In this document: positions 22,177 to 26,293 of the stretch, one piece after another | Layout: each line of letters begins with the position of its first letter | Numbering within the stretch: position 1 is the stretch's first letter | NCBI RefSeq assembly: GCF_000975135.1 | Contig: NZ_BBRF01000001.1 | Location: 932,380-996,379 of the forward strand | DNA from: Demequina aurantiaca | GTDB lineage: Bacteria > Actinomycetota > Actinomycetes > Actinomycetales > Demequinaceae | Length of the DNA stretch: 64,000 bases | Direction of reading: 5' to 3' | Position numbers and translations under genes: made by a program | The notes under the pieces: generated by a model | Told to the model about the DNA's origin: nothing | The model's database searches: none | Seen by the model: only the letters and a program-made list of their open reading frames with translations

Positions 22177-22197
22177 CCCGGCTACCCCCTATCTCCC

Positions 22198-22249
22198 GCG
22201 CTTACATCTGGGCCCAAAATCGAGGGATTCTGGGCCCAAATGTAAGCGC
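22198..22249. repeat. Hairpin element A (19-bp stem, 14-nt loop) upstream of the DUF559 gene
   Basis: Arm 22198-22216 pairs with 22231-22249 with a single wobble; the core word GCTTACATCTGG is shared with element B at 23255. It begins 22 bp after the DoxX stop and could also act as its terminator. Confidence 0.8.
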
Positions 22250-22323
22250 AGGAGTTGGTGGGGCTATCCACAGATTGATGTGCAGCCGCATCGCACGTGA
22301 CTTCCACGTGGTGGAGTCGTGGC

Positions 22324-23247
22324 ATGGCACTACCTCTTCACCTTGACGAGCCGACGACGGTGAGCGAGTATCTCGACCGCGTACGCGCTCCTTGTCGACG
22401 ATCAGATCTCGAGAGCGAGTGGTCTAAGCACCGCGTGAGAGCTGCGTTGCACAGTGGCGACGCCGTAGCCCTGCTGCCTGGTCTGATCGTTGCACGAGCA
22501 CACGTGCAAAATCCCACCGTGAGAGCCCAGGCGATCAGCGCTTGGTGCCACCGCGCCGTCGTGACGGGGCAACTGGCACTGCACCTTGAACGGTCCGAGT
22601 TGGCTGCACCCGAGATTGCGGATGTCCTGATCGAGCGGCCCTATACCGTGAGAGCCCCGGATTGGATCCGCGTGCGGTCGGTCGCCGAACTACCGCCAAG
22701 TCGTGTTCGCAACCTGGTGCGCCTGGCCACGCCCGCCCATGCGCTGGTTGACGCGTGGCGTGCCGCGCATCCGCGTGATCGCAGGTCAACCTTCTACGAG
22801 GCGATGTGGGAGCGATGCTGCTCTGTCGCTCGTCTGTTCGAAGCACTCGAATGGGCACCACGAGTCCCCGAACGAAGGACGCTTCTACACCTCGTCGCAC
22901 ACTTTGCGCGGGGTGCGACGTCACCGCTTGAGGTGCTCGCACGGAACGAGGTGTTCACAGGTGCTGATTTTGCGAAGCTTGAGTGGCAAGCAGAGATCAC
23001 TACCAGTGGCCGACGTCGAGTCGCGGACGCCCTTCATCGAGAAGCACGTGTCTTGATCGAACTCGATGGCGAGGCCTTTCATGGCTCGGCAAAGGCGCGT
23101 CGGGCGGATCGTGAGCGCGACGTCGAGCTCGCCGCAGCCGGCTATCTCACTTTGCGCTTTGGTTGGCGTGACCTTCACGACAGGCCCTCGTGGTGCCGCG
23201 ACAGGGTTCGCCGAGTCCTCAAGACCCGTCTCGACGATGCTCGCTAA
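22324..23247 (+). CDS. DUF559 (Vsr-like PD-(D/E)xK) protein with AbiEi-like N-terminal region
   Basis: 307 aa from the ATG at 22324 with GGAG seven bases upstream. The N-terminal part (about 10-110) resembles the helical/winged region of AbiEi-type antitoxin-domain proteins. The C-terminal 110 residues match DUF559, a relative of very-short-patch repair nucleases: S200-P-L-E203, VADAL with Asp235, IELDG with Glu247 and Asp249, then the R-A-D-x-x-R-D helix and RFGWRDL. The catalytic set looks intact. The gene reads noticeably less GC-rich than its neighbours and is bracketed by two related hairpins, which hints at a mobile or selfish unit. Substrate and partner are unknown; no separate toxin gene is adjacent. 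Confidence 0.8.
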   Translation: MALPLHLDEPTTVSEYLDRVRAPCRRSDLESEWSKHRVRAALHSGDAVALLPGLIVARAHVQNPTVRAQAISAWCHRAVVTGQLALHLERSELAAPEIADVLIERPYTVRAPDWIRVRSVAELPPSRVRNLVRLATPAHALVDAWRAAHPRDRRSTFYEAMWERCCSVARLFEALEWAPRVPERRTLLHLVAHFARGATSPLEVLARNEVFTGADFAKLEWQAEITTSGRRRVADALHREARVLIELDGEAFHGSAKARRADRERDVELAAAGYLTLRFGWRDLHDRPSWCRDRVRRVLKTRLDDAR

Positions 23248-23254
23248 CCCCTGC

Positions 23255-23302
23255 GCTTACATCTGGTCGCAAAACTCGTCAGTTTTTCGCCCAGATGTAA
23301 GC
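23255..23302. repeat. Hairpin element B (21-bp stem, 2 mismatches, 6-nt loop) downstream of the DUF559 gene
   Basis: Arm 23255-23275 pairs with 23282-23302. The outer 12 bp GCTTACATCTGG are perfect and identical to element A, and the inner parts differ. It begins seven bases after the DUF559 stop. Bases 23303-23444 contain no gene that I can support. Confidence 0.8.
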
Positions 23303-23444
23303 ATAGGAGGAGAGCTGGTGGGGGGCGTCTCACCGATGGGGGCGCGGGCGCGGAAGTTGGCGCGGGCTCCGGCGCGGAACGGCAAGTCTCGCCACCAGAA
23401 TCGGCCAGGTCTACCGCCAGACGGCCGATGCCGTCGCCCGGCAA

Positions 23445-23486
23445 CGCGAAGGGCCCCACCTCCGTCTGGAGATGGGGCCCTTCGCG
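23445..23486 (-). terminator. Terminator hairpin of clpC
   Basis: A 19-bp stem (23445-23463 with 23468-23486, one wobble) and loop GTCT, starting 14 bp after the clpC stop. The T-tract is weak. Confidence 0.65.
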
Positions 23487-23499
23487 GAACTAAGACTTG

Positions 23500-26070
23500 C
23501 TATTCGCCGGTGCCCTTGGGAACGTCTTCACCTTCGTGAGGACCGTCGCCCGCGAGCTCCGAGGACGCTCCGACCGGAGCGTGCTCGATCGTCATGGGGC
23601 CACCCGTGATGTCGTCCTTGTCGAGGCCCTCGAACGTGAACTCCGCGGTGGAACCCTCGCCCTTGACGTCGACGCGCACGATCTGCCCTGCAGTGAGTTC
23701 GCCGAACAGGATCTTCTCCGACAGGGCATCCTCGAGCTCGCGCTGCAAGGCGCGGCGCAGGGGTCGAGCACCGAGGACGGGGTCGTAACCCTTCACCGCG
23801 AGCAACTGCTTTGCGGCGTCCGTGAGCTCGATACCCATGTCCTTGTCTTGCATGCGGATGTCCAACTTGGCGACCATGAGGTCGACGATCTGCACGATCT
23901 CCTGCTGTGTGAGCTGCGGGAAGACCACCACGTTGTCCACGCGGTTGAGGAACTCAGGCTTGAAGTGATCCTTCAGCTTGGTGTTCACCAGCTTGGTCAT
24001 CTCTTCGTAGCTCTGTCCACCCTCTGTCGCGACCGAGAATCCCGTGGCCTGACGACGCGAGATCGCGTCGGCACCGAGGTTGGTGGTCATGATGATGATG
24101 GTGTTCTTGAAGTTGACCTCGCGACCCTGAGCATCGGTCAACTTGCCGTCTTCCAGGATCTGGAGAAGTGAGTTGAAGATGTCCGGGTGGGCCTTCTCGA
24201 CCTCGTCGAACAGGACCACGGAGAACGGCTTGCGGCGGACCTTCTCGGTCAGCTGGCCACCCTCTTCGAAGCCCACGTATCCGGGAGGGGCACCGAACAG
24301 TCGAGCGACCGTGTGCTTCTCTCCGTACTCGGACATATCGAGGCTGATGAGCGAGCTCTCGTCGCCGAACAGGAACTCGGCGAGCGCCTTGGCCAACTCC
24401 GTCTTACCGACACCGGTAGGACCGGCGAAGATGAACGAGCCACCGGGACGCTTGGGGTCCTTCAGGCCTGCACGAGTACGACGAATGGCCTGAGACAGCA
24501 CCTTGACGGCCTGGCTCTGGCCGATGACGCGCTTGCCCAGTTCGCCTTCCATCTGGAGGAGACGCGAGGACTCGTCGGAGGAGACGCGGGCCACGGGAAC
24601 ACCCGTGGACATGGCGAGCACCTCGGCAATGAGCTCTTCGTCAACGACTGCGGCGACGTCGAGGTCGCCTGACTTCCAGGCCTCCTCCTTCTCGGAGCGC
24701 TCCTCGGTGAGGCGGCGCTCCACGTCACGCAGCGACGCTGCCTTCTCGAAGTCCTGCTCGTCGATCGCGGATTCCTTGTCGCGGCGGACGTTGGCGATCT
24801 TGTCGTCAAGGTCTCGCAGCTCGGGAGGTGACGTCATGCGACGGATGCGCAGGCGCGCGCCCGCCTCATCGATGAGGTCGATCGCCTTGTCTGGCAGGAA
24901 GCGGTCGGAGATGTAGCGGTCTGCCATCTGAGCCGCGGCCACGATCGCGTCGTCCGTGATCGTGACGCGGTGGAACGCTTCGTAGCGATCGCGCAGCCCC
25001 TTGAGGATCTCGATCGCGTGAGCGAGCTCCGGCTCGGGAACCTGGATCGGCTGGAAGCGACGCTCGAGTGCGGCATCCTTCTCGATGTGCTTGCGGTACT
25101 CGTCGAGCGTGGTGGCGCCAATGGTCTGGAGTTCACCTCGTGCCAGCATCGGCTTCAAAATCGAGGCTGCGTCAATCGCGCCCTCGGCGGCACCCGCACC
25201 CACCAGGGTGTGGATCTCGTCAATGAACAGGATGATGTCCCCGCGAGTGCGGATCTCCTTGAGGACCTTCTTGAGGCGCTCCTCGAAGTCACCGCGGTAG
25301 CGCGAACCAGCCACGAGCGAACCGAGGTCGAGCGTGTAGAGGTGCTTGTCCTTCAGCGTCTCCGGCACGTCGCCGCGCACGATCGCCTGGGCCAGACCCT
25401 CGACCACGGCGGTCTTGCCGACACCGGGCTCGCCAATCAAAACAGGGTTGTTCTTGGTACGGCGCGACAGCACCTGCATCACGCGCTCCATGATGAGCTC
25501 GCGGCCCACGACGGGGTCGAGCTTGCCCTCGCGCGCGGCCTGCGTGTAGTTGCGGCCAAACTGGTCGAGGACCGTCGAGCCGGCAGGGGTGCCCTCCGCT
25601 GGGCCGCCACCGGCGGTCGCGGGCTCCTTGCCCTCGTAGCCGGACAGCAGCTGGATGACCTGCTGACGCACGCCACCGAGGTCTGCTCCAAGCTTGCCGA
25701 GCACCTGGGCTGCGACGCCCTCACCCTCGCGGATGAGACCGAGCAGAATGTGCTCGGTTCCGATGTAGTTGTGGCCGAGCTGCAGCGCCTCGCGCAGTGA
25801 CAACTCGAGTACCTTCTTGGCGCGAGGCGTAAAGGGGATGTGACCGGAGGGAGCGTGTGAGCCCTCGCCGATGATCTCCTGCACCTGCTCGCGCACGCCG
25901 TTGAGGCTGATGTCCATGGCCTCGAGTGCCTTGGCTGCGACGCCTTCGCCCTCGCGGACGAGGCCGAGCAGGATGTGCTCCGTGCCGATGTAGTTGTGGT
26001 TGAGCATGCGCGCCTCTTCTTGGGCGAGCACCACTACACGTCGGGCCCGATCGGTAAACCGTTCGAACAT
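23500..26070 (-). CDS. clpC: ATP-dependent Clp protease ATP-binding subunit ClpC
   Basis: 856 aa AAA+ unfoldase. Two N-terminal Clp_N repeats (about 1-145) bind adaptors and substrates; the first ATPase has GEPGVGKTA, a UVR-type middle coiled coil follows near 420-460, and the second ATPase has GPTGVGKTE. It feeds substrates to ClpP. The start is the ATG at 26070, six bases after AAGGAGG; the ATG two codons upstream touches the ribosome site and is less likely. A ClgR-like box lies about 100 bp upstream. Confidence 0.96.
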
Positions 26071-26167
26071 TTTCATCCTCCTTCGTCGTCCGGCGGGTGC
26101 CGGGGTCTCCACAGTCACCTGTGGTGTTGCAACCAGGCTAACCACGGTCAGGGGGTGGTTATTGCGA

Positions 26168-26186
26168 TGTTCGCCAGGGGCGTGAC
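26168..26186. promoter_or_regulatory. Possible ClgR-type operator upstream of clpC
   Basis: An imperfect palindrome centred on CGCC-AGG-GGCG (26172-26182) resembles the CGC-N5-6-GCG pattern bound by ClgR in corynebacteria and mycobacteria, the known activator of clpC. The match to the outer positions is partial. Bases 26071-26293 otherwise hold only the clpC leader. Confidence 0.3.
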
Positions 26187-26293
26187 AACCGTGACCTGGC
26201 CGACACACTGCCGCTCAGCCCCTTGACATCGCTGCAGCGCGCCGATGCTCGCGCGGGGGCTTCCTGAAAGGCCGCCTGCTGGCCGCCACGCGA

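Follow-up and report, generated by a model that had tools for sequence, protein, structure and literature searches.

Genes encoding RAYTs are flanked by two palindromes, which co-diversify with the enzyme and whose abundance is tied to the presence of the cognate gene (PMC2817692). The palindromes of this system, the REPs, measure 20-40 bp (PMC3733652). Among nucleases, I-Bth0305I, a homing enzyme of the EDxHD group, forms a dimer on its target, which spans nearly 60 bp (PMC3943268). A report on Caulobacter VsrA assigns its DUF559 domain to the Vsr-like PD-(D/E)XK group, and proposes a role in mismatch repair, linked to cytosine methylation, for DUF559 proteins of the VsrA type (PMC12907096). 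No paper linking DUF559 to palindromes was found in the literature searched, which covered titles, abstracts and terms, with subscription journals outside the coverage.

We analysed a stretch of 64,000 nucleotides (hereafter the window; G000:C6:932380-996379) from the 2.57-Mb genome of Demequina aurantiaca (G000). It contains a DUF559 gene of ~0.9 kb between two palindromes, a unit of ~1.1-1.2 kb in total whose neighbours, by reading of the open reading frames, are a DoxX-like gene and clpC (Table 1). The two palindromes share GCTTACATCTGG, and the 12-mer described as a common arm in the initial annotation is exact in three of the four arms and carries one mismatch in the fourth. Both palindromes are imperfect (arms 84-85% complementary) and fold with z-scores of -7.8 to -11.3 relative to shuffled sequences. 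The 5' palindrome ends 67 bp before the ATG of the gene, or 40 bp before the alternative GTG, and the arm of the 3' palindrome begins 7 bp past the stop codon (23247). The same annotation had placed the hairpins in the same orientation, a statement that carries no information since the elements are palindromic. It had also called the unit less GC-rich than its surroundings, which is a weak distinction, as the GC content is ~0.60-0.65 versus 0.65-0.70 upstream but equally low in the adjoining clpC.

Table 1. Features of the DUF559 locus, in window coordinates
Feature	Position	Strand	Remarks
5' flanking palindrome	22191..22256	.	66 bp; family consensus CTCCTGCGCTTACATCTGG-N28-CCAGATGTAAGCGCAGGAG; covariance model R1 match G000:C6:954570-954635; orthologous copy in D. 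oxidasica
DUF559 / MTES_1575 (Vsr-like) nuclease gene	22324..23247	+	307 aa; alternative GTG start at 22297 gives 316 aa
N-terminal region of DUF559 protein, AbiEi-like winged-helix, candidate palindrome reader	22345..22590	+	weak profile matches of homologues; boundaries approximate
DUF559 catalytic domain core	23017..23178	+	aa 232-285
3' flanking palindrome	23246..23311	.	66 bp; arm as in 5' palindrome, centre differs; R1 match G000:C6:955625-955690
clpC terminator-like hairpin	23445..23486	-	distinct from flanking palindromes
clpC	23500..26208	-	flanking gene; marks orthologous insertion site

The window protein belongs to the DUF559 nucleases, as its score against Pfam DUF559 (PF04480) exceeds the cut-off (26.3 bits; cut-off 20.6) and its catalytic residues are intact. 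Its score against MTES_1575 (PF18741) is below the cut-off (25.6; cut-off 38.2), and all homologues match both DUF559 and MTES_1575. Residues E203, D235, E246, D248 and H253 (307-aa numbering) are invariant in 25 homologues. The core initially given as Asp235, Glu247 and Asp249 is therefore intact, with the numbering of the last two residues off by one. The gene is under purifying selection, with a dN/dS of 0.15 relative to the orthologue in D. oxidasica (G042). At the N-terminus, AbiEi_4 (PF13338) is matched by 7 of the 25 homologues (best E 0.0034) and the PADLOC AbiEi models reach 9e-13 at best among homologues; the window protein itself gave no significant match to either. The homologues also match candidate anti-phage profiles weakly. 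Relatives in the PDB, as identified by profile, are 3hrl (E 0.008) and the mobile intron protein 3r3p (E 0.68, a weak match), which we take to be I-Bth0305I. An AlphaFold2 prediction from two sequences had a pLDDT of 39.

DUF559 homologues occur throughout the genus, with up to eight per Demequina genome, and most are 35-45% identical to the window protein. We read 62 DUF559 loci over 12-20 kb each, 51 of which were counted as close. Long palindromes (span of 48 or more) have a density of 2.1-2.3 per kb within 200 bp of the DUF559 genes at the 62 loci, versus ~0.03 per kb beyond 2 kb. A matched pair, defined as an upstream and a downstream palindrome with at least 16 of 20 arm bases alike, is present at 30 of the 51 close loci and at none of 184 control genes from the same stretches. 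Between different loci the arms share a mean of only 7.7 of these bases. Where both sides carry a palindrome (38 loci), the within-locus arm matches sum to 588, versus a maximum of 396 in 10,000 permutations. Matched pairs are a general feature of close DUF559 loci in Demequina, and DUF559 is the sole gene between the palindromes at the usual loci. Homologues lacking flanking hairpins, named beforehand as a refuting observation, do occur: 21 of the 51 close loci (about 40%) have no matched pair, including two genes at the clpC site (L144 and L151), and most of the more distant DUF559 paralogues of these genomes likewise lack one.

Ungapped alignments of the flanking palindromes (68 and 69 columns) revealed a common plan: GCGC-CCTGG on the outside, then a mid-arm of ~8 bp that is specific to the locus, a TGAGTGC-like block further in and a variable centre, followed by the mirror image. 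The elements are symmetric and 66-69 bp long, and in many loci, that of the window included, CAT lies 31-32 bases from its mirror ATG. The description of a shared outer and a diverged inner part is right for the window's own family; when loci are compared with one another, specificity lies in the mid-arm and the centre varies most. Among the arm columns the mid-arm varies most, yet it almost always pairs. Its covariation score is 0.70; shuffles give 0.22, and sliding the partner gives 0.08-0.19. An RNA helix is expected to tolerate G-U pairs. Such pairs are nearly absent from the mid-arm while it varies, which argues for a symmetry of duplex DNA rather than for RNA pairing, and we interpret the palindrome as two half-sites of a dimeric protein.

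Arm similarity follows that of the proteins (Mantel r 0.43, versus at most 0.21 in permutations), and subclades of the protein tree have arms in common, forming GAGGTGCT, GGGACAT, GACACAT and ATCGCAT groups. Taken together, the sequences strongly suggest that DUF559 proteins recognize their palindromes. Candidate specificity segments were sought in the protein; the best windows, near residues 37-56 and 125-141, gave a signal too weak for a claim.

The window's palindromes belong to a dispersed family. A genome-wide pattern consisting of both arms and a fixed 30-base centre matched 14 places in D. aurantiaca, compared with 0 for the reversed pattern over the whole genome, more than chance would give; the two hairpins around the DUF559 gene are real. 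Covariance model R1 recovered the same 14 copies, with no tail of weak members. It also detected 7 copies in D. oxidasica and had no match in 42 further Demequina. All 14 D. aurantiaca copies are identical in length, with constant arms and a varying centre. Two flank the DUF559 gene and the remaining 12 lie away from any DUF559 gene. This distribution, and four other DUF559 genes of the genome without GCTTACAT, at first appeared to refute the association; that objection was overturned by the finding that DUF559 genes of other species carry palindromes of other sequence. A search of Rfam returned no match, and pattern matches in Aliifodinibius were rejected as chance, with neither the centre nor the outer arm shared.

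Two further arrangements were observed in D. aurantiaca. A second palindrome pair of the window's family surrounds an excalibur-domain-like gene beside a tRNA-Tyr (G000:C6:1102297-1103627; L084 12297-13627), and the second palindrome of this pair is only a half remnant in D. oxidasica. Beside the TTACAT family there is a second family of about 11 TGAGTGC-type palindromes (among them C5:31328-31396, C6:109160-109228, C6:1288717-1288785 and C6:397982-398050), one copy of which lies at another DUF559 gene (C6:108287).

The D. oxidasica orthologue of the bracketed gene is 92% identical over 307 aa and has both palindromes. Comparison of the elements in the two species gave six shared, one decayed, one half remnant and two cleanly absent in D. 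oxidasica. At the six orthologous sites the arms diverge exactly as the flanks do (both 0.111), which does not support selection on the arms, whereas the centre diverges 1.8 times faster than the flanks (p=0.002). Target-site duplications were sought at the copies specific to one of the two species and none was clean at such divergence. The initial annotation had called the unit self-spreading; we also infer spreading, and no transposition event with a target duplication was resolved.

Solo copies, as anticipated, occur widely. Covariance model R2, built from the flanking palindromes and counted on both strands, detected copies in 39 of 41 Demequina, at 0 to ~29 per genome, some of the genomes compared being drafts. 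We read about 40 solo sites for their arm sequence. In most genomes tested the solo arm is that of the genome's own DUF559 gene (9/9 in G034, 4/4 in G027, and most in G022 and G014), with a mean match to the own genome's DUF559 flanks of 12.8/15 versus 9.3, a value reached by none of 5000 permutations. Two genomes, G020 and G037, have solo families with no cognate DUF559 gene among the loci read, so the pattern named beforehand as damaging to the association, hairpins in a genome with no DUF559 gene, occurs in part. These orphan families and the DUF559 genes without pairs look like losses in a strongly associated system. Copies are fewer in genomes with only weak DUF559 homologues (Mann-Whitney p=0.0014), and over all genomes the rank correlation between element number and DUF559 similarity is not significant (Spearman p=0.12).

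Within one contig (G038:C14; L226 1968-2067 and 8966-9065), two solo copies 7 kb apart match at 99% over 100 bp, including 32 bp of flank, which indicates a recent copying event. In one of the two copies, and not in the other, this shared flank overlaps a terminator-like hairpin. The 7-kb stretch between them encodes a LacI-type regulator, a sugar ABC transporter and a glycosidase, and the arrangement may reflect either the copying of an element or the insertion of a cassette.

The palindromes might instead be sites useful to the host, kept by selection, with DUF559 acting as a regulator, a chromosome-organising protein or a reader of self/non-self marks, for example against phages. The purifying selection on the gene and the weak AbiEi and anti-phage profile matches of its homologues are consistent with such a role, as is the retention of several solo copies at orthologous places since D. 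aurantiaca and D. oxidasica split. We nevertheless consider it very unlikely, given that copies differ between these sister species to the point of clean absence or decay, that their number varies so widely among genomes, that the arms of shared copies are conserved no better than their flanks, and that arm sequence turns over between species.

A second possibility is that the palindromes are the ends of an ordinary insertion sequence moved by another transposase, with DUF559 as a passenger. The size of the unit, its two matching ends and the spread of copies resemble such an element. Against this, the arms co-diversify with the DUF559 protein, solo arms match the DUF559 gene of their genome and no further gene lies between the palindromes at the usual loci. 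In addition, Y1 transposase (PF01797) had 0 matches in D. aurantiaca and D. oxidasica, and control genomes do give matches. We therefore attach hardly any weight to this explanation.

By crude gene calling, solo copies are intergenic and lean towards gene 3' ends, being enriched in convergent gaps (17/47 versus 57/305, p=0.01) and scarce in divergent ones (3/47, p=0.04). This bias, together with the strength of the hairpins, would suit bidirectional transcription terminators or stabilizers of mRNA 3' ends that surround the gene by chance. Inserted repeats would be expected to show it as well, since insertions into promoters are removed. Intrinsic terminators are GC-rich hairpins with a U-run and tolerate G-U pairs, whereas the palindromes have no U-run by our reading and almost no G-U pairs in the mid-arm despite complete turnover of the arms. 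Terminators also need neither matching, locus-specific arms nor tracking of a DUF559 lineage. Furthermore, clpC has a separate terminator-like hairpin at empty and filled sites alike: at the majority of the empty or solo sites inspected, one comparable to that in the window lies 3' of clpC. A terminator function is thus a highly improbable account of the palindromes.

The site between clpC and akr differs in content from species to species, as the syntenic comparison proposed in the initial annotation brought out. The region 3' of clpC is empty in G034, G032 and G027, and holds a solo palindrome in G014, G035 and G038. A DUF559 gene with palindromes is found there in D. aurantiaca, D. oxidasica, G024, G015, G001 and G006, and one with no detected palindromes in G020 and G037. 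In G012 and G028 two palindromes surround another gene. The DUF559 genes at this site occur in both orientations, and a single clade is rejected for their proteins (AU p=1.3e-6; tree with five changes). The gene enclosed in G012 (L347 546-1260) and G028 (L350 687-2935) is polyketide-cyclase/SRPBCC-like, with further genes also enclosed in G028; it appears as if genes other than DUF559 can sit between two palindrome copies.

A homing-type gene drive would also produce a site whose state differs between solo and occupied from one species to another. Solo palindromes would then be targets, and the nuclease would cut chromosomes that bear a solo copy, or foreign DNA without the gene; repair from the flanking palindromes would insert the gene, and solo copies would be either empty targets or scars of recombination between the two palindromes that flank the gene. 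The enzyme superfamily does include Vsr-like homing endonucleases (PMC3943268), and the faster divergence of the palindrome centre is expected if it is cut and repaired. Classical homing insertion, however, destroys the recognition site, which here is intact on both sides of the gene. Solo copies also outnumber occupied sites several-fold and lie at unrelated places, which indicates that the palindromes themselves spread. We regard a homing drive as unlikely, although less so than the explanations weighed above.

On direct reading of flanks, matched palindrome pairs, each of its own sequence, were also seen around DUF559 relatives from other families of the Micrococcales. One locus (L281) has palindromes with TCCGGTGGGCAGGTTGAGTTCC on both sides, L283 likewise has a matched pair, and L288 and L290 have near-perfect palindromes of 49-53 bp on both sides. 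The last two are seemingly identical DUF559 units in opposite orientation, about 20 kb apart (G077:C54:16608 and 36177), an arrangement that is either a large inverted duplication or an effect of the assembly. Outside Demequina, R2 gave borderline matches only. No close relatives were found in plasmids and viral contigs; 19 viral contigs from IMG/VR (L292-L310) encode distant relatives of the nuclease domain.

Given the pairs, the cognate solo copies and the variable clpC-akr site, the locus is probably one unit of a dispersed two-part element, consisting of a DUF559 gene between palindromes and of intergenic solo palindromes, copied by means of the enzyme. Binding, dimerization, cutting and a role of the enzyme as the driver of copying are activities that we infer from the sequence comparisons. 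The protein would bind the palindrome as a dimer, each subunit using its N-terminal AbiEi-like domain to read one mid-arm half-site of ~8 bp, and the Vsr-like domain would cut within or beside the palindrome. Repair of the cut from another copy could then place palindromes, or now and then an entire unit, at new intergenic positions, and such cut-and-repair would let arms and enzyme co-diversify.

These observations point to a self-spreading DNA element of a kind not described before. A broader proposal, which we favour with some reserve, is that some actinobacterial DUF559/MTES_1575 nucleases are the active half of an undescribed class of mobile palindromic elements. An AbiEi-type winged-helix plus Vsr-like nuclease would read two mirrored half-sites of ~8 bp, spread palindromes of ~66 bp by cut-and-repair and change its specificity along with them, as a convergent counterpart of REP/RAYT in several Micrococcales families. 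These genomes are rich in DUF559 genes, and if each had a cognate DNA target, they would have a function open to direct testing. The proposal would also add a second, independent nuclease-plus-palindrome life style to that of the Y1 transposases, and account for intergenic palindromes in actinobacteria. It would further provide naturally occurring pairs of nuclease and target, with specificities legible in the genome sequence, from which the recognition of DNA by such proteins could be learned.

The described systems each share part of this arrangement. VsrA-type proteins have the DUF559 domain in common with the proteins studied here, which differ in their flanking palindromes, none being described for the VsrA type in the available part of that report (PMC12907096). 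AbiEi antitoxins of type IV toxin-antitoxin systems resemble the N-terminal region of the homologues by profile; the protein here has a nuclease domain, and no AbiEii toxin gene was seen among the adjoining open reading frames. The EDxHD, Vsr-like homing endonuclease I-Bth0305I has a related catalytic domain, as suggested by the weak profile match to 3r3p. Unlike a homing gene, the DUF559 gene lies outside any intron or intein and does not interrupt its own target, since the presumed site, if the palindrome is the target, is intact on both sides and present in many copies.

The arrangement also resembles REP/RAYT. As there, a nuclease gene sits between two palindromes, dispersed intergenic copies follow the genome's own enzyme (with G020 and G037 as exceptions), the palindromes co-diversify with the enzyme and their abundance is linked to its presence. 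The comparison of the nuclease-plus-hairpin unit with REP/RAYT made at the outset is thus supported, with qualifications. The RAYT enzyme is a Y1/HUH transposase (IS200/IS605-like), whereas the enzyme here is DUF559/MTES_1575 (Vsr-like); and a GTAG/CGTC-type head with a palindrome of 20-40 bp contrasts with an element of ~66-69 bp without a head. The Demequina elements also differ in their duplex mirror symmetry with half-sites and in numbering tens of copies rather than hundreds. Since the Y1 enzyme and the head motif were both looked for and neither was found, we consider the system REP/RAYT-like in its working rather than a member of that group. From the RAYT-like arrangement and the absence of Y1 transposase matches in D. 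aurantiaca and D. oxidasica, we propose a convergent system that may work like REP/RAYT with an unrelated, PD-(D/E)xK-type enzyme, in which a DUF559 dimer would cut the palindrome and repair would spread it.
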